Source: Paenarthrobacter aurescens (GTDB lineage Bacteria > Actinomycetota > Actinomycetes > Actinomycetales > Micrococcaceae). From it: a DNA stretch of 64,000 bases. Of the stretch, positions 26,584 through 40,478 are shown piece after piece. The stretch lies in contig NZ_CP157456.1 of NCBI RefSeq assembly GCF_041549525.1, forward strand, positions 1,984,001 to 2,048,000, written 5' to 3'. Position 1 is the stretch's first letter, and every line of letters begins with the position of its first letter. Below the pieces are notes generated by a model that searched no databases, was not told the DNA's origin, and saw nothing but the letters and a program-made list of their open reading frames with translations. Position numbers and translations under genes: made by a program.

Positions 26584-26638
26584 CAGCTAATTCTCGTTCC
26601 GTGTCCTGTACTCCGCCAGAGATTCCGGTGACTGCCGG

Positions 26639-27865
26639 CTAATTTTCGTGACTCGTTGGGATGTCCTGGGAGGCTGCCCACTCGCTGACATCCCGGCGTT
26701 CAATGGCCGCAGCCATCATGTCCGGGAAAAGATCCGGAGTGCACGCGAACGCGGGAACACCGATGCCTGCAAGCGCCGCTGCGTGGCTGGAGTCGAAGGA
26801 TGGATGGCCGCTGTCACTCAAGGCCAGCAAGGCGACCATGGTTGTCCCTCCGCCCACAATGGAAGCGGCACGGCGCAGCATTTCTTCTGCTATCCCGCCC
26901 TCGTAGAGGTCACTGATCAGCACCAGGATGGTTTCGGTGGGTTTGGTGATCTGGTCCTGACAGTAGGCAAGTGCGCGGTTGATGTCAGTGCCACCGCCCA
27001 GTTGCACGCCGAACAGCACGTCCACGGGATCGTCCAGGTCGTCGGTCAGATCCACCACTTCGGTGTCAAAGACCACCAACCTGGTGCTCACTGACTTGAG
27101 CGAACTGAGGACAGCTCCAAAGACACTGGAATAAACCACTGATTCAGCCATGGATCCCGATTGGTCGATGCACAGAATGATTTCGCGCTGAATTTCGGTG
27201 CTGCGTCGTGCGTGTCCGTGGAGCCGCTCGGGCACCACCGTCCGGTATTCGGGCTGGTAATGCTTGAGGTTAGCGGCGATGGTTCTGTTCCAGTCAATAT
27301 CCCTATGCCGTGGCCGGCGGGTCCTTGCGGAACGGTTGAGCGCCCCTGAAACGGCCTGGATCGTCTTGGCACGTAACCGTTCTTCAAGCTCCTTGGTGAC
27401 CTGCCGGATAACCGATCTGGCAGTTTCCCGGGACTCCTCGGGAATCACCCGCCCCAGACCCACCAGGGTGCTCACCAATCCGATATCCGGTTGGACCGTC
27501 CGCAGCATTTCCGGTTCCAGAAGCAGCTGCCTCAGCCCGAGCCGGTCCATGGCATCGGCCTGCATAACCTGGACCACTGAAGAGGGAAAATACCCACGGA
27601 TGTCGCCAAGCCATCGGGCCACGCGTGGACTGGACGAGCCCAGTCCACCGCGCCGATTGGACCCCTCACCGTAGAGCTCTTCCAACGCCTGATCGCGTCG
27701 CACATCGTCCTCGGACAGCTGCACCGGCATACCTTCCCCTGTTGAGATGCCGTCAGCATCGTGCCCGCCCAGCACCAACCGCCAACGGCTCAGCCGGTCC
27801 CGCCCGGACCCGGCAGAATCCTCCGGCGCATCAGAGGCACCTGTCACAGCTGCATCGTCGGTCAT
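26639..27865 (-). CDS. VWA-domain protein of the MoxR-linked five-gene operon
   Basis: A 408-residue soluble protein. The C-terminal half (about 210-390) is a von Willebrand A domain with the MIDAS motif DQSGSM, followed by the conserved Thr region GGGTDI and the Asp in LVLISDLYEGG. The N-terminal half is helical and starts with a low-complexity acidic stretch. VWA proteins next to MoxR ATPases act as their adaptor or effector in metal insertion or complex assembly. The ATG at 27865 overlaps the DUF5682 stop by ATGA and has GGGAGG upstream. It is the last gene of the operon; the next gene, on the same strand, is the MFS transporter. Confidence 0.88.
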   Translation of the reverse strand: MTDDAAVTGASDAPEDSAGSGRDRLSRWRLVLGGHDADGISTGEGMPVQLSEDDVRRDQALEELYGEGSNRRGGLGSSSPRVARWLGDIRGYFPSSVVQVMQADAMDRLGLRQLLLEPEMLRTVQPDIGLVSTLVGLGRVIPEESRETARSVIRQVTKELEERLRAKTIQAVSGALNRSARTRRPRHRDIDWNRTIAANLKHYQPEYRTVVPERLHGHARRSTEIQREIILCIDQSGSMAESVVYSSVFGAVLSSLKSVSTRLVVFDTEVVDLTDDLDDPVDVLFGVQLGGGTDINRALAYCQDQITKPTETILVLISDLYEGGIAEEMLRRAASIVGGGTTMVALLALSDSGHPSFDSSHAAALAGIGVPAFACTPDLFPDMMAAAIERRDVSEWAASQDIPTSHEN

Positions 27866-30273
27866 GCGATCGCCTCCCATCCCAGAATGCGTGCCATGGT
27901 TTTCAGCGCCGGGCCAGCGTCGGACAGGTCCATGGGGGAGGACTCTGCTGCGACGCCGGCAGAACCGGCCCGGCTTAACTGCTCGCCGATTTCGCGCCGC
28001 TCAGGCCTGCTGAACGCCGAGAAAGTCCTCCGGATCAAAGGTAAGACGTCCTCGAACACGTCATCAGGCACGGCTTCCACCCAATCATCAACGATCTGAA
28101 GTAGCCGCCGATCATGGATCAGCAAGGTCGCGTCGCCGGACAGCAGGCCGTCCAACCAGGCAGCGGCTTCCGGGGCGGGTGTAGCAATGGACAATCGTCG
28201 GCTAAGGCGCGAGGCAACGTCATCTCCTTCCACCAGGCCTGCATCCAGCAGGAGTCGGGTGGCCCGTCCGGCCACCGAGCCATGAATAGTGTCCGAGTGC
28301 GCCACCGCCGAGAGGGCAGTATGCCAGTCATTCAACGGCAGCTCAGGCAAGACGGTCAGACCATCCTGTGCCCGGTCAATGGCCCGGCGCATCACACCGG
28401 CAGCATCATCATCCAAGCCGGCGCAGGCGGTGGGCAGTCCGACACACGCGCGGACTACCGTGGCCTGCAGGATTTTCCGGACATCCCTCACGTCCACCCC
28501 GCGCACGTTGCCGTACCTGCAGGTGCGCGCCAGCGGGGCGATGGTTTCCAAGAGCGGAGGAACATCCTGCTGCAGCGCAGTGCGTTCAGCCAAGGCGGAC
28601 ACGACGCCGGCAATGCCGTCCGGTAATTCGGCCAGCAGACAGCTCTCCAACAGTTTGCTCAAAACGGGCAGGCTTTCGGCCGCTTGCGCCTGCTCAGAGA
28701 CGTACGTGGCTGCTGCTGAGGCGACGGTGGTGCCGTAGCGGCTCGCTTCCACCACTGAAACAGCCAACTCGGGTTTCCACGCCAACGTCCATGCCTCCTT
28801 GAAGGTGCCGGTGGTCCTGCCGGCGTCGGTCGGCTGAGCCCAGTCCACACCCAGCAGTGACAGACGGTGGAGGAGCACCGAACGGGCCAACTGGTTCGGC
28901 TTGCGCAGGTCCAGAACCATGACCTCTTCCATGGCACTGGGCTTCATGCGCAGCTTGCGTTGGGTGGCGGTGAGGTCCGCTGCGAGCGGGAGGGTAGGCA
29001 CAGAGTCGGGAACGTTCCCGAGCTCGCGCCCAACAGTAAGTTCCCGGTGAACCAGGGCCAACGGCAGAGGTGAACCGTCGCAAAGGACAGTCTGCGCGGC
29101 ATCGTCCAGCTCCGGCAGGCCAGGGCTTGGCCGTCCGCGGACGGCGGCTAACGCAGTAGCCATCCTGCTGGCCTCCACAACGGAGGCCGTGGAAGCATCC
29201 AGGTTTTCTTTGCGCAATGCATGGGCTACCCGGACCAGCCACGTGGTGGCAACGTCCGCCGCGGGATCCTTGGCCATCCAATGTGCGAACAGGTGCTGGT
29301 ACCAGCCCGGCGCAGTTACTCCTGCTCCGTATCCGCTGCCCAGGCTGAGCCGGTCCGATGTCCATGGAACCCAGGTGACTGCAACTTTTGCCTTGGGCAA
29401 ACCGGCGAGGACTTTGTTGTCGGCGGACACCGAAGGAAAACCGGCGGGTACCAGTGCCGGTGCGTGATAGGCGCCGCACACTACTGCGATGCGTTCGTGC
29501 CCTTCGCGCATGGCCGCGCGCACCAAGCGCCGCATGGCAGCTTCCCGGCGGTTGTTCTCCAGAACGTCCGGATGGTCCACCGGACGCTGATCCATGTCCC
29601 GGATCTCCGTGATCGCATCGATGAGAGCTTCAAAGCGTTCAACGGGGTCCGTGTTCCGGTGCTCCACGGCGTCCTCCCACCAGCGTTCCGCGTCGCTGTA
29701 GCCTGCAGCTGTGGCCAACATGCCAATCGCGTCGGGCCGGTACGCCTGCAGCGGGGCGGCCGGAGGGTCCTCGATGACATCCGAGGGTGTCCCGTCGACG
29801 GCGGCAAGACCGCCGCCGTCGTCCGAAGTGGCAGCAGTGGCTTCCTCCTGAGAAGCCGCCAAGGCTGCCAGGTCGCGTTCCTGTACCGCGCGTTCCTGTG
29901 CCGCGCGTTCCTGTGCCGCGCGTTCCTGTGCCGCGCGTTCCTCTGCCGCCCGGAGCGCGAACGTGTGTGCGGCGGGCAGGTCAATGGCACGCACAGGCTT
30001 TCCCGTGGACAGAGCCCAGCGGATCGCCACCCACTCAGGCGAGAAGCCGGCCATGGGGTAGAACGAAGCCAATCGAGGCTCATCCACCGCATAGATTAAG
30101 CCTGCGACCGGTGGAACCATGTCCGGATCCGTGACCAGCGGGATGACCTGGTCAAGCTCCGGCGGCCCTTCAACCAGTACCAAATCAGGCCTAAGGGTAG
30201 CCAGAGCTTCCGCGACGGAATGGGCCGAACCCGGACCGTGGTGCCGAATCCCCAGAATGTGGACGTCTGTCAT
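27862..30273 (-). CDS. DUF5682 family protein of the MoxR/VWA operon
   Basis: An 803-residue soluble protein. The N-terminal part opens with VHILGIRHHGPGSAHSVAEA and LVLVEGPPELD, and a later block reads RIAVVCGAYHAPAL near residue 260. This paired G-x-x-H arrangement recalls the TIKI/TraB/EreA-type hydrolase fold (my inference). Residues about 108-132 form a repeat (AAQER units) expected to be a short charged coiled coil. The C-terminal 450 residues are helical and may be a scaffold. The start follows the MoxR stop by 3 bp. The biochemical function is unknown. Confidence 0.8.
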   Translation of the reverse strand: MTDVHILGIRHHGPGSAHSVAEALATLRPDLVLVEGPPELDQVIPLVTDPDMVPPVAGLIYAVDEPRLASFYPMAGFSPEWVAIRWALSTGKPVRAIDLPAAHTFALRAAEERAAQERAAQERAAQERAVQERDLAALAASQEEATAATSDDGGGLAAVDGTPSDVIEDPPAAPLQAYRPDAIGMLATAAGYSDAERWWEDAVEHRNTDPVERFEALIDAITEIRDMDQRPVDHPDVLENNRREAAMRRLVRAAMREGHERIAVVCGAYHAPALVPAGFPSVSADNKVLAGLPKAKVAVTWVPWTSDRLSLGSGYGAGVTAPGWYQHLFAHWMAKDPAADVATTWLVRVAHALRKENLDASTASVVEASRMATALAAVRGRPSPGLPELDDAAQTVLCDGSPLPLALVHRELTVGRELGNVPDSVPTLPLAADLTATQRKLRMKPSAMEEVMVLDLRKPNQLARSVLLHRLSLLGVDWAQPTDAGRTTGTFKEAWTLAWKPELAVSVVEASRYGTTVASAAATYVSEQAQAAESLPVLSKLLESCLLAELPDGIAGVVSALAERTALQQDVPPLLETIAPLARTCRYGNVRGVDVRDVRKILQATVVRACVGLPTACAGLDDDAAGVMRRAIDRAQDGLTVLPELPLNDWHTALSAVAHSDTIHGSVAGRATRLLLDAGLVEGDDVASRLSRRLSIATPAPEAAAWLDGLLSGDATLLIHDRRLLQIVDDWVEAVPDDVFEDVLPLIRRTFSAFSRPERREIGEQLSRAGSAGVAAESSPMDLSDAGPALKTMARILGWEAIA
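29875..29949 (-). repeat. 15-bp tandem repeat in the DUF5682 gene
   Basis: Five consecutive copies of GCGTTCCTGTGCCGC (plus-strand orientation); the first and last copies differ by one base. On the coding strand this encodes repeated A-A-Q-E-R units. The unit keeps the frame, so the copy number can vary without breaking the protein. Confidence 0.9.
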
Positions 30274-30276
30274 TTT

Positions 30277-31383
30277 TCAGTTGGATGATTCGAGATCGCG
30301 GCAGGCCCTGTACAGGTCCTTCCATTCAGGCCGGTTCCGCACCACGGTCTCCAAGTATTCCTGCCAGATGACGCGGTCCTGCACGGGGTCCTTGATCACT
30401 GCGCCCACCAAGCTGGCGGCCACATCCTCTGCACGGACCGTGCCGTCTCCAAAGTGTGCTGCCAGGGACAGCCCGTTGGTCATCACGGATATTGCCTCCG
30501 CTGTGGACAACGTGGCCGATGGCGACTTGATGGTGGTGCGCTGGTCCTGCGTCACCCCTGACCGGAGCTCGCGCATCACGGTCACCACCCTGCGGATCTC
30601 GGACAGCGCTGCCAAATCGGCCGGCAGCTCCAAGGCCTCACCCAGGCTGCGAACACGGGTGGTGACGATCTCCACCTCTTGGTCGATGCTGTCCGGAAGC
30701 GGCAGGACCACCGTATTGAACCGGCGTCGAAGGGCGGACGAGAGATCGTTGACGCCCTTATCCCGGTTGTTCGCTGTGGCAATCACATTGAAGCCCTTCC
30801 GTGCCTGCACTTCCTCATTGAGCTCGGGAATGGGCAGTGTCTTCTCGCTGAGGATGGTGATCAGGGAGTCCTGCACATCGGAGGGGATGCGGGTGAGTTC
30901 CTCCACCCGCACCAGGCTTCCTGTCTCCATTGCGCGCATCACCGGACCCGGAACCATGGCGGCGCGGGAAGGGCCATCGGCCAACAAACGGGCGTAGTTC
31001 CATCCATACCGCAACGCCTCTTCCGGGGTACCCGCGGTGCCCTGCACCACCAGGGTGGATGAGCCGGAGACGGCTGCCGCCAGGTGCTCACCAAGCCAGG
31101 TCTTCGCGGTTCCCGGAACACCCAGCAACAGCAGTGCACGATCCGTGGCCAAGGATGCCACGGCGATTTCCACCAAGCGTTCCGAGCCAAGGTACTTCGG
31201 ACTGATCTGAACACCGTTGGCCAAGGTTCCACCGAGGATATAGGTGGTGACTGCCCATGGCGAAAGACGCCAGCTCGGTGGCCGTGGGCGGTCGTCAACA
31301 GCGGCCAACGCGTTGAGTTCATCGGCGTAGGCGTTCTCGGCGTGGGCCCGGAGAACCTCCGTGGCGTTCTGGGCATCGGTCAT
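30277..31383 (-). CDS. MoxR-family AAA+ ATPase
   Basis: A 368-residue AAA+ ATPase. Walker A is GVPGTAKTW, Walker B region LVRVEELTRIPSDVQ, sensor 1 in NVIATANNRD and the arginine finger in SSALRRRF; the C-terminal lid is present. MoxR ATPases are chaperone-like remodelers that work with VWA proteins, here the one encoded at 26639. The frame is open to 31764, but the ATG at 31383 overlaps the DUF5691 stop as ATGA, has GGAGG upstream and gives a normal MoxR N-terminus. It is the third gene of the five-gene operon and resembles the YehL-type subfamily by its gene neighbours. Confidence 0.9.
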   Translation of the reverse strand: MTDAQNATEVLRAHAENAYADELNALAAVDDRPRPPSWRLSPWAVTTYILGGTLANGVQISPKYLGSERLVEIAVASLATDRALLLLGVPGTAKTWLGEHLAAAVSGSSTLVVQGTAGTPEEALRYGWNYARLLADGPSRAAMVPGPVMRAMETGSLVRVEELTRIPSDVQDSLITILSEKTLPIPELNEEVQARKGFNVIATANNRDKGVNDLSSALRRRFNTVVLPLPDSIDQEVEIVTTRVRSLGEALELPADLAALSEIRRVVTVMRELRSGVTQDQRTTIKSPSATLSTAEAISVMTNGLSLAAHFGDGTVRAEDVAASLVGAVIKDPVQDRVIWQEYLETVVRNRPEWKDLYRACRDLESSN

Positions 31384-32822
31384 CGGAAAGCCTCCGTCAG
31401 GGATTGTCTGAATGATTGGTATTGGACGGCATCGCGCAGGACACGACGCCGGGCTGCGTCGTCGTCTGTTCGTGCCAAAAGTTGCCGGCAATGTTCGGCA
31501 GCCTCGGGCGGCAGCGCAGTAGGAAGGACTGCAGCCAGCAGGGCCGCCAAGCGACCACCGTCCTTGCCCGAAATCACTGCCAGTACCGCCTCGGACAATG
31601 GAACGGGCCACGGTTGCGGCAGATCGTGGAGGAGCGGAGCCAGGGTCAGCGGTTGGTCGTTGGTTTCCCGGACGTGCCGCTCCAGCCAATGTGCCCGCTC
31701 GTCCGGAGGGAGGCAATCGAGCAGCCTCCTGTCCGTCACGACGCCAAGAAGCGCGCGGGCCCATTCGGGATCGTTGCGCGCGGCAGTGGCAGCGATCATC
31801 GCGTCCAGGATGCGGGGTTCTCCCTGCAGCAGCGCAAGGGTGGCCGAGCGGTTACGGCCTGTTGCCGCCGTCCACACATCCAGCGGTGCGCCCTTGATAA
31901 TGGCCTCCAGCCGTGCCATCCGATCCGGTTCGCCCTTGCGTGGGTCCGGTGGAACTCCGTCCCGCAGTGCCTCCTTGTCAGGGGCCGGGGGGAGATCGAT
32001 CTCCAGCCTTTTACTCAGGAGCCCTTTGACCTGCAGCAAGGGTTTTAGCCGGGTGGCCATGCGTGCAGCGCGCGCACTCTCCGGGAGTTGGTCCAGAAGC
32101 CGGAGAGCCACGTCCCGTACACCCTTGGCTTTGTCGTCCAAGGCCTGCTCCAGCAAGGCTTCGTCGTCGTCTTGGAGGTTTCCGGCGAACAATGCCAGCT
32201 TGCCTGCGCGTTCCCTGGCGCTGAGCGACGTCCAGGTCTGACGAAGTTGGGCGCGTGCAGCTGAAGGATCACCACCTCTTAGCCGGCCATAGTCTGCCGC
32301 AGCGTCAGAGCTCCGGGGCCCAGTACTTTGGGTGGCAGGCTCGTGAGAAGGCGGGTTCTTGATCTCCTGCAACCACCGGCCACGGGTTCCAATAGCCGGT
32401 TCCAGAGACCTGAAAACAGCGGAATTAGTTTCAGCCAACGTCAGCAACGCCGGCAGCAGCCGGTGAGGAACCCGTCGTCGTGATTTTTCGGCTAAACCCA
32501 GCCAGTCCACTACCAGCTGGGTCCTCAGCTCAAGGCCCACGGGTGGCTGGGTCAGCAAAAGGTCCAAGAGCCGGGCGGCCTCACCGCTGGCTTGCGGCTC
32601 CACATCAGCAGGGGCCGGCGAAGAAGGACCGGTTTGGGGGGCAGTGGTGGCTGTCCGCGTCGCCCGGGTAACAATGTCAGCCAGGGCGGCTTGATCCAAC
32701 AGGGATTCTTCGCGGCTTAGGCCAGCGGGTGCACGAAACCCCAATTCTGTGGGCGGATGCGGAGCGTCGTGCCGTCCCGTACCCACCAGCGCCGCTGTTC
32801 GCAGGTCTGCCACCCACATCAT
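31380..32822 (-). CDS. DUF5691 family protein of the MoxR/VWA operon
   Basis: A 480-residue soluble, largely helical protein, starting MMWVADLRTAALVGTGR as in DUF5691 proteins. The C-terminal two thirds show regularly spaced Leu-rich helices that suggest a HEAT-like repeat scaffold (inference). No catalytic motif is visible. Both ends are coupled: the start shares ATGATGA with the stop of the SWIM gene and the stop overlaps the MoxR start. Its fixed position between SWIM and MoxR genes suggests it is a structural partner of the ATPase complex. Confidence 0.75.
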   Translation of the reverse strand: MMWVADLRTAALVGTGRHDAPHPPTELGFRAPAGLSREESLLDQAALADIVTRATRTATTAPQTGPSSPAPADVEPQASGEAARLLDLLLTQPPVGLELRTQLVVDWLGLAEKSRRRVPHRLLPALLTLAETNSAVFRSLEPAIGTRGRWLQEIKNPPSHEPATQSTGPRSSDAAADYGRLRGGDPSAARAQLRQTWTSLSARERAGKLALFAGNLQDDDEALLEQALDDKAKGVRDVALRLLDQLPESARAARMATRLKPLLQVKGLLSKRLEIDLPPAPDKEALRDGVPPDPRKGEPDRMARLEAIIKGAPLDVWTAATGRNRSATLALLQGEPRILDAMIAATAARNDPEWARALLGVVTDRRLLDCLPPDERAHWLERHVRETNDQPLTLAPLLHDLPQPWPVPLSEAVLAVISGKDGGRLAALLAAVLPTALPPEAAEHCRQLLARTDDDAARRRVLRDAVQYQSFRQSLTEAFR

Positions 32823-34117
32823 GGGGTCACCACCATTCCATCAACGACGACGGTCAGGGGACGCAGGCGGCCATCTTCCAGTTCGCCAAAAATATCGGCC
32901 GCATGGCCACCGGTCAGTGCCAGCAGCGAGTCCAGGGGAGCATCCACCAAGGGAAGAGCCTCGCCGTTCGGATCATGCAGCCACCCCGTGCCCTCGGGGT
33001 TGATGATGACTTCCTCCAACAGCACGGGAAGCCTGGTCCGCCACGGCGAGAGGGCAACGGCAGCAGACTCCTGTTTGAGGGCCTGCACAATGCTGTTGCC
33101 CGCGCCCAGGTTGGTGGCCACGTCCAGGGGAGTGATAGGGCCGTTGAACATAGCGCGCTGCGGAGCTGAGCCGGGGTACCGGGCAATGGTGGCATCAAGC
33201 AGAGCCCCGGCGAGTTGCGGGGCAGCTAAACCCTGGCCCTGGCCGGCGAAATCAAGGACCACCACTACCTTTCCATCCGGGCCCTGAAGCCAGGTCCGTT
33301 GTTGCTGAAGGCGGCCGTCATCGCTCCGGTGGGCTCCCAGAACCAGCCAAGGGCCCGGCAACCGCTCAGTGTCCTGTACATCGGCCGACGCCGTGGACCA
33401 CCCGAGGGCAGCCTTGACGTCAGCGAACTCGTCCGGAGAAAGCTTGTCCCTGGCTGACCAGGCCATGGAAAGAGCCCACCAGCGGCCCGCATGGAGGAGA
33501 AGATGATCAGACCAGTCCGTCCTGCCGTGGATTTGGGAAGCCATGTCCCGTACTTGTTCGCCTAAACCAGGAAGCTGGGAGTCCACCAAACGGGCTGCAA
33601 CGCCATCCCACCACGAATAGGGCTGGTTGCGGGCAGCAGCGAGCCCTGTCCGGATAAGGTCCGTCAGCCAGCGCGAAAAATCATCGACCCCTGCGTCCAT
33701 CAGCGCGAGCCGCGCAGCGAGACGTTTTGCCTGCGCTTCCGGATCGGCGGGCTGCTCGGTTTGCCGACGTTCTTTTGCCGTGGCGCGATCGGCCCGTTGA
33801 TCCGCCCACTCCTTGGCGAAATCCGCGGTGGCGGCTCCTACTTCGGCTGCCTCACCCCGGGACCACAGGAGGAGCAGTGCCAGGGCATGCTTGCACGGGA
33901 ACTTCCGGCTGGGACACGAGCAGCGGTAGGCGGGCGCGACGATGTCAACGCTGACTTGGTACGGCGTCTTTCCGCTGCCTTGGCATTTACCCCATACAAG
34001 AACCTCATTGCTGCCGGAGTCCGACCATGGGCCGGGATGTGCAAGCTTCCGCGCCGCCGCCAAGGAGGATGCGTCCGGGGCTGCTTTGATGACTGTCTCT
34101 TCGCTCCAACGCCCCAT
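32819..34117 (-). CDS. SWIM zinc-finger protein, first gene of the MoxR/VWA operon
   Basis: A 432-residue protein with a SWIM zinc finger near the N-terminus: Cys66, Cys68, Cys75 and His77 in YRCSCPSRKFPCKHALAL. A charged, helix-forming stretch follows (about 92-130), then a large domain of unknown fold. SWIM fingers bind DNA or protein; the related E. coli gene yehQ also sits next to MoxR (yehL) and VWA (yehP) genes. It is the promoter-proximal gene; the promoter should lie in 34118-34250, where I find no clear operator. Confidence 0.85.
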   Translation of the reverse strand: MGRWSEETVIKAAPDASSLAAARKLAHPGPWSDSGSNEVLVWGKCQGSGKTPYQVSVDIVAPAYRCSCPSRKFPCKHALALLLLWSRGEAAEVGAATADFAKEWADQRADRATAKERRQTEQPADPEAQAKRLAARLALMDAGVDDFSRWLTDLIRTGLAAARNQPYSWWDGVAARLVDSQLPGLGEQVRDMASQIHGRTDWSDHLLLHAGRWWALSMAWSARDKLSPDEFADVKAALGWSTASADVQDTERLPGPWLVLGAHRSDDGRLQQQRTWLQGPDGKVVVVLDFAGQGQGLAAPQLAGALLDATIARYPGSAPQRAMFNGPITPLDVATNLGAGNSIVQALKQESAAVALSPWRTRLPVLLEEVIINPEGTGWLHDPNGEALPLVDAPLDSLLALTGGHAADIFGELEDGRLRPLTVVVDGMVVTP

Positions 34118-34252: not shown

Positions 34253-34288
34253 GGCCCGGATGTTCGCACAGGTGCGAGCATCCGGGCC
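34253..34288 (-). terminator. strong terminator of the DUF3100 operon
   Basis: 17-bp arms GGCCCGGATGTTCGCAC and GTGCGAGCATCCGGGCC, with one wobble pair and a 2-nt centre, lie just past the DUF3100 stop. Read leftward, the stem is followed by a TTTCTT tract. It insulates the SWIM operon from the cluster on its right. Confidence 0.85.
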
Positions 34289-40426: not shown

Positions 40427-40478
40427 TTTGCGTTACAGGCATGTAAACCCTGCACAAGGAGGCAGCCTTAAACGGCAA

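Follow-up and report, generated by a model that had tools for sequence, protein, structure and literature searches.

MoxR-type AAA+ ATPases that work with a VWA partner are known from NorQ–NorD, CoxD–CoxE, CbbQ–CbbO and RavA–ViaA, two-gene systems that are not known to include DUF5682, DUF5691 or SWIM components, of which NorQ–NorD and CoxD–CoxE insert or remodel a metal site. The same AAA+ and VWA logic, with a CoxE-type VWA, is found in the five-gene operon SWIM – DUF5691 – MoxR AAA+ – DUF5682 – VWA analysed here, which occupies positions 26639-34117 (minus strand) of a 64,000-nucleotide stretch of Paenarthrobacter aurescens DNA (NCBI RefSeq assembly GCF_041549525.1, contig NZ_CP157456.1, positions 1,984,001 to 2,048,000; hereafter the window); however, NorQ, RavA and ViaA show only weak sequence similarity to the window proteins. 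We tentatively propose, with a probability of about 0.4, that the five genes encode a single cytosolic MoxR–VWA machine in which a DUF5682 hydrolase would be gated and a solenoid–SWIM part would serve as adaptor.

The MoxR–vWA ternary conflict systems, as described in the relevant passages of Kaur et al. (2020; PMC7159879), also combine a MoxR–vWA pair with a further conserved component, the effector being sometimes fused to the vWA domain. However, none of their third components (VMAP, iSTAND, FtsH, beta-propeller) was detected in the five proteins by Pfam and PADLOC scans, and the match to bpMoxR in the window stays below the Pfam cut-off. Whereas those systems have variable effector modules, the window system keeps the same families across many phyla under purifying selection; SWIM is not mentioned in the main text of PMC7159879. 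MoxR ATPases and vWA proteins coupled to a putative peptidase are likewise described in PMC12839542 and, for jumbo phages, in PMC7824862, but there the peptidases are metallopeptidases or variable, and DUF5682, DUF5691 and SWIM are not named in the passages concerned. A YehL subfamily of MoxR is named in a passage of PMC3893208. Neither DUF5682 nor DUF5691 was found named in the literature searched, no function for the five-gene set or for yehLMPQ of Escherichia coli is described among the literature matches listed, and of the two publications that name at least two of yehL, yehM, yehP and yehQ, one appears to announce a genome and the other to present a resource of strains. As far as literature searches show, the putative machine would be uncharacterised. 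SWIM–MoxR–VWA neighbourhoods were reportedly noted earlier, in a SWIM domain paper of 2002 and a MoxR review of 2006.

A five-gene operon kept together across phyla

The five closely coupled open reading frames (ORFs) are all read from the minus strand. The first gene encodes a SWIM zinc-finger protein (32819..34117; 432 aa; Pfam SWIM, 3.7e-7) and is followed by those for a DUF5691 protein modelled as an alpha solenoid (31380..32822; 480 aa; Pfam DUF5691, 2.6e-93), a YehL-subfamily MoxR AAA+ ATPase (30277..31383; 368 aa; Pfam AAA_5, 2.1e-38), a DUF5682 protein (27862..30273; 803 aa; Pfam DUF5682, 1.9e-243) and, last, a VWA_CoxE protein (26639..27880; Pfam VWA_CoxE, 3.4e-53). Translation of MoxR starts at the ATG at 31383, the mechanical ORF (30277-31764) being over-extended. 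An earlier note, made from the sequence alone, had described a leftward five-gene operon at this place, and ORFs and Pfam families agree with it, as do the ATGA overlaps that it gave for SWIM/DUF5691 and DUF5691/MoxR and the gap of 3 bp between MoxR and DUF5682. The ATGA overlap that it gave for DUF5682/VWA exists if VWA starts at 27865, which is the likely start, and not with the longer alternative from the ATG at 27880, which would give a 19-bp overlap.

The relation to E. coli yehL and yehP suggested by the same note is correct. The window MoxR matches YehL with 226 bits and 40% identity over 350 aa, against only 24 bits for RavA, and the VWA protein is 34% identical to its E. coli homologue, against only 30 bits for ViaA; assignment to the YehL subfamily comes from this comparison of YehL with RavA. 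The comparison given in the note was, however, incomplete, because yehM, which lies between yehL and yehP, also encodes a DUF5682 protein (27% identity). The order MoxR–DUF5682–VWA and the presence of a SWIM gene are thus common to both loci, and MoxR, DUF5682, VWA and SWIM genes stand side by side in the window as in yehLMPQ, with DUF5691 placed between SWIM and MoxR. The E. coli locus differs in having no DUF5691 gene, in its upstream genes of DUF4132 and WGR type and in a SWIM gene that comes last and encodes a protein of different architecture (YehQ, 614 aa). Among complete E. coli genomes, 5162 out of 5426 (about 95%) carry no less than 80% of the yehLMPQ block.

Linkage was followed in 80 named loci, the best 80 among 583 relatives confirmed when named genomes were scanned. 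These loci lean to the architecture of the window (type A) and were scanned with hidden Markov models trained on these same loci. They comprise 34 loci from Actinomycetota, 13 from Bacteroidota, 11 from Pseudomonadota, 7 from Cyanobacteriota, 6 from Chloroflexota and 5 from Planctomycetota, the remainder being three that are each alone in their phylum and one without assignment. Two loci, L051 and L078, appear to lie on one and the same contig (136,001 bases). With room defined as 4.5 kb upstream and 1.5 kb downstream, 66 loci pass and all five genes are kept in 62 of them; four of the 14 left-out loci hold all five as well. The 246 genomes scanned from the window's phylum include 19 with DUF5682 and 17 with DUF5691 over its cut-off, every one of the latter having DUF5682 within 6 kb. 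Two DUF5682 genomes (G298, G219) are without DUF5691, and three further DUF5691 matches, below the family cut-off, come from genomes without DUF5682. Finally, DUF5682 was located at 39 places in other genomes, 34 of which were fetched with flanks, and MoxR accompanies it in 33 of the 34, the exception (L077) being a decayed remnant. Mostly independent occurrence of the five families, which would have spoken against a common system, is thus not what is observed (62/66 loci; 17/17 DUF5691 genomes).

Each of the five genes shows purifying selection. Ratios of non-synonymous to synonymous substitution (dN/dS) against five relatives are 0.014-0.056 for MoxR, 0.031-0.083 for VWA, 0.078-0.151 for DUF5682, 0.072-0.152 for SWIM and 0.203-0.223 for DUF5691. 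Taken together, the conservation counts and these values (0.014-0.223) argue that the five genes belong together beyond chance. Loci in which the five parts stay together come from Actinomycetota, Cyanobacteriota, Chloroflexota, Bacteroidota, Planctomycetota, Verrucomicrobiota and Pseudomonadota, and the sister form is found in about 95% of the complete genomes of E. coli.

Gene order varies around this common core. In type A, SWIM lies on the strand opposite to MoxR in 10 of the 69 loci scanned for both, all from Streptomycetaceae. Type B, the E. coli form, reads DUF4132 – MoxR – DUF5682 – VWA – SWIM (yehI, yehL, yehM, yehP and yehQ in MG1655, where the small yehK separates yehI from yehL) and recurs in L052, L053, L063 and L069. 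Six of the 13 Bacteroidota loci have a type A operon adjoined by a DUF4132-type gene (Pfam-checked in L107, L117, L129 and L151) and so bridge types A and B. Type C (L064-L066 and L068) consists of a large protein, MoxR, a single protein that joins DUF5682 to VWA and, downstream, a SWIM-like protein, the latter with a CxCx5CxH motif in all four loci and a SWIM match in L068 (E 0.028). The large protein upstream of MoxR has 1584 aa in L068 and 1683 aa in L064 and gives no Pfam match in either. Type D (L070-L073) reads VWA – MoxR – DUF5682; an unannotated protein (463-472 aa in L070 and L073) whose family is common to all four loci stands beside these genes.

Two pairs of the components also occur as single proteins. 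SWIM–DUF5691 fusions are present in six loci (L058, L067, L100, L120, L126 and L154), and the L120 fusion used as query retrieved 513 proteins (E <= 1e-30); those listed, 120 in number, all measure 910-1019 aa and all carry PF18944. DUF5682–VWA fusions occur in four loci, as in L065, where Pfam places DUF5682 at residues 84-1011 and VWA_CoxE at 1040-1261. Both fusions may be taken as evidence of contact between the respective partners.

DUF5682 as a putative hydrolase and the motifs of its partners

Alignments of homologues show the ATPase, MIDAS and SWIM-zinc motifs to be intact. The key residues of MoxR, in what we take to be Walker A, Walker B and the arginine finger, are invariant in 109 of 109 rows; in the VWA MIDAS the D, S, S and later D are invariant in 110 of 110 rows and the Thr is found in 105; and the zinc ligands of the SWIM protein are C66, C68, C75 and H77 (CxCx6CxH). 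Walker B of this MoxR (window 30277-31383) reads Glu-Glu in 109 of 109 homologues of the system, the usual form being Asp-Glu.

DUF5682 models (pLDDT 91.5) as an N-terminal alpha/beta domain that carries GX2H motifs, followed by a C-terminal alpha solenoid. The motifs appear in the model in the order strand-GX2H, strand-E, strand-GX2H, and R-E-x-x-M precedes the last motif strand. H11, H12, E35, G267 and H270 are invariant in 108 of 108 sequences and G8 is kept in 101 of the 108, so that the TIKI/TraB-like G-x-x-H motifs recognized in the earlier note prove to be conserved. On the minus strand of the window, the codon of His11 in the first GX2H motif (G8-I-R-H11-H12; alignment A1) lies at 30241..30243, that of Glu35, at the end of strand 2, at 30169..30171, and that of His270 in the second GX2H motif (G267-A-Y-H270) at 29464..29466, the last two being placed by model and alignment. 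Two GX2H motifs, a conserved Glu at the end of strand 2 and R-E-x-x-M are shared with the TIKI/TraB/erythromycin esterase (Ere) superfamily, whereas the long C-terminal solenoid is a feature of DUF5682. The closest DUF5682 relatives, which place the genome near Paenarthrobacter/Arthrobacter, differ in length; in the window, a 15-bp tandem repeat of 5.1 copies (29874..29949, minus strand) encodes an AAQER helical insert that falls after the conserved stretch around Glu35 and ahead of the second GX2H motif.

The helical scaffold that the note had foreseen in DUF5691 is supported by its modelled fold, an alpha solenoid that resembles HEAT/ARM proteins at middling Z. In the E. coli form a DUF4132 gene takes the place of DUF5691 and the SWIM gene is kept. 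HEAT_2 is matched over the cut-off in the DUF4132 relatives of L107 and L129 and below it in those of L117, L151, L052 and L053; the HEAT_2 matches of L107 and L129 suggest that both a solenoid and a SWIM component are present again, in altered sequence.

The proposed machine and competing explanations

Judged from sequence and models, the parts list, gene order and fusions would fit a MoxR–VWA remodelling engine, a DUF5682 enzyme and an adaptor made of SWIM protein and solenoid. In such a machine, MoxR of the YehL type would form an ATPase ring and act through its VWA partner, whose MIDAS may grip a peptide, so as to switch or unlock DUF5682. The latter would be a hydrolase, most likely a peptidase or esterase of the TIKI/TraB/Ere type, carried on its own alpha solenoid. 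DUF5691, as a HEAT/ARM-like solenoid, and the SWIM protein would together recruit the target, and ATP hydrolysis would couple target recognition to hydrolysis. From the conserved DUF5682 residues we infer hydrolysis, and from the gene linkage a gated physical complex, which would presumably be cytosolic. It is tempting to speculate that this is a further, widely distributed MoxR–VWA class, in which an AAA+ ring and a VWA arm gate a cytosolic TIKI-fold protease and an exchangeable solenoid–SWIM adaptor picks the target, although so specific a form of the proposal is doubtful. If true, it would add a bacterial energy-dependent hydrolysis system unlike Clp, Lon, FtsH or the proteasome, one carried by roughly 95% of the complete genomes of E. 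coli. The invariant DUF5682 residues and the fusion pairs turn the old question of yehLMPQ function into direct tests.

Several observations weigh against a gated TIKI-type hydrolase with a solenoid–SWIM adaptor. HHalign comparison of the DUF5682 N-terminal domain gave no significant kinship with Ere (P 0.041) or TraB (P 0.068), but from the same small alignments even the accepted pair TraB–Ere reaches only P 0.084. Where Ere has its first catalytic Glu (GE..H), the window protein has I9, and no row of A1 has a Glu there, so that the 2His/2Glu catalytic set of Ere is incomplete in DUF5682. Nor was a PDB match to the N-terminal domain obtained, the Foldseek and VIA lists being filled by the solenoid; in whole-model searches neither the DUF5682 model nor the SWIM–DUF5691 model had a Foldseek match at E <= 0.001, and the absence of TIKI folds from the solenoid-filled lists of DUF5682 excludes nothing. 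On the adaptor side, the HEAT/ARM matches of DUF5691 have Z values that can be reached by a chance arrangement of helical repeats, E. coli YehI itself is without a HEAT_2 match, and no SWIM motif was found in the type D loci, which indicates that the adaptor is not universal. Four loci with room (L088, L093, L102 and L157) each lack several of the five genes.

Alternatively, the operon may serve metal-centre maturation, MoxR and the CoxE-like VWA inserting or remodelling a metal site with DUF5682 as client or metal-loading partner and SWIM and DUF5691 as client adaptors. The earlier note had left conflict or defence and metal-centre maturation among its options; the former has become less likely and the latter stays as a rival, albeit an unlikely one. 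That the VWA protein is best matched by VWA_CoxE, that the nearest bacterial MoxR of solved structure is NorQ (38 bits, after midasin with 85 bits) and that Tiki is described as metal-dependent in a passage of PMC6254334 would all be consistent with a metal-related role. An iron-sulfur assembly family is also found in three of the 80 neighbourhoods, yet otherwise no metalloenzyme or metal-assembly gene was seen among the recurring neighbour families with scanned representatives, which are a part of the total. E. coli molR, beside yehI and yehLMPQ, has been linked to molybdate use (a 1990 paper cited in PMC8533742), but the molybdate genes of Deinococcus radiodurans showed no response according to a passage of PMC8533742.

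An anti-phage or conflict function, in which the operon would be one more class of MoxR–vWA ternary system and DUF5682 its effector, appears distinctly unlikely. The same chaperone pair is present, the third component is hydrolase-like and can be fused to VWA, as in the vWA–peptidase effector fusions described for counter-invader MoxR–vWA systems in part of PMC12839542, and the operon is patchy in the window's genus (9/61 genomes over the cut-off), with losses. Nevertheless, no PADLOC model matches the five genes, or the three neighbours scanned with them. The window DUF5682 has matches in only 36 of 72,556 plasmid records, chromosome-sized ones among the 36, and in 1 of 50,697 phage records, none of 16 pattern matches in viral contigs was confirmed as a relative, and no hypervariable component was seen in the dN/dS values. 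Being under purifying selection, core in E. coli and seldom met on plasmids or phages, the set does not resemble a classical anti-phage island, and we take the operon for a chromosomal stress or maintenance device, not a mobile defence island. Least probable among the readings considered is a complex for DNA damage or genotoxic stress, in which SWIM, together with WGR and DUF4132 proteins in the E. coli form, would read damaged DNA and MoxR–VWA–DUF5682 would act on proteins there. WGR- and DUF4132-type genes do lie upstream of yehLMPQ, a DUF4132 gene adjoins the operon in the six Bacteroidota loci, and the DUF4132 and WGR proteins of D. radiodurans are reported in a passage of PMC8533742 to rise on DdrO depletion. 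However, the DUF4132 gene of the window's own genome is 1.35 Mb away, and no clear enrichment of SOS boxes was detected 5' of SWIM in 66 loci, exact GAACN4GTTC sites numbering 1 against 0.5 in shuffles and one-mismatch sites 12 against 6.6, a weak excess. The gated MoxR–VWA–DUF5682 machine is the preferred reading.

Losses, mobility and neighbouring genes

Within the genus, the nine genomes are joined by a weak remnant in G042. In G039 the MFS and DUF3100 genes flank an empty site, window positions 26620 and 34253 being only 37 bp apart there. Decayed scraps of VWA persist in G060 (L162 6211-6456) and G042 (L077 8230-8807), the latter also with a scrap of DUF5682. The empty site and the scraps indicate that losses of the operon in the genus are real. 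In G060 the flank after the scrap jumps to window position 40473.

Relationships were also followed in a MoxR tree of 75 rows, made by a quick method; of its 72 inner branches, 28 are open. Actinomycetota (34 rows, support 98) and Bacteroidota (11 rows, support 99) each fall on one side of a branch, whereas Pseudomonadota account for 5 changes, Chloroflexota for 5 and Planctomycetota for 4, the total being 13 against a least possible 7. These groupings suggest clade-wise descent in the large groups, with transfer or paralogy possible in the others. Type A genes are found on large plasmids of Deinococcus taeanensis and Hymenobacter radiodurans (L181, L182); the record of the H. radiodurans plasmid splits DUF5682 into three annotated pieces and lists no VWA gene.

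Neighbour families were defined as ORF families recurring in at least three of the 80 loci, only some of which had scanned representatives. Those with a scanned member comprise DUF4132, short-chain dehydrogenase, RibD_C, MerR, a Cys/Met enzyme, pirin and iron-sulfur assembly, and only DUF4132 adjoins the operon consistently. The iron-sulfur assembly gene is 3.3 kb away in L081, 4.4 kb away in L129 and, in Chitinophaga niastensis (L147 4482-4793, Pfam-checked), 132 bp upstream of SWIM. The single DUF4132 protein found in the window's own genome carries DUF7737 (L160 8451-11009; G000:C1 near 660 kb).

PADLOC applied to 46 other ORFs of the window returned mad3, mad8, AriA, an amino-acid transporter and PDC-M01A, which we take for generic matches. 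Applied without a control to 96 of 140 chosen flanking ORFs, it returned 29 families; the 25 listed occur in 1-3 members each, and some of the matches are strong, one to AbiEi reaching 3.4e-100.

The operon is flanked by a DUF3100 gene upstream and an MFS gene 55 bp downstream. The latter was considered as a sixth member and rejected, having a match in 55 of 62 genus genomes while the operon is present in few; all that it does is mark the site. A search for promoter-like sites gave none. A hairpin with a T-rich tail at 34253..34288 (minus strand), read by eye and absent from the terminator scan list, may be the terminator of the DUF3100 gene that lies upstream and would then give the operon a transcript of its own. 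A recurrent ORF family of 12 loci at Streptomyces neighbourhoods lies on the other strand in L144 and is taken for spurious. In L144, the only Streptomyces locus examined in this respect, both genes that were scanned on the downstream side of VWA encode succinyl-CoA ligase subunits, i.e. core chromosome.

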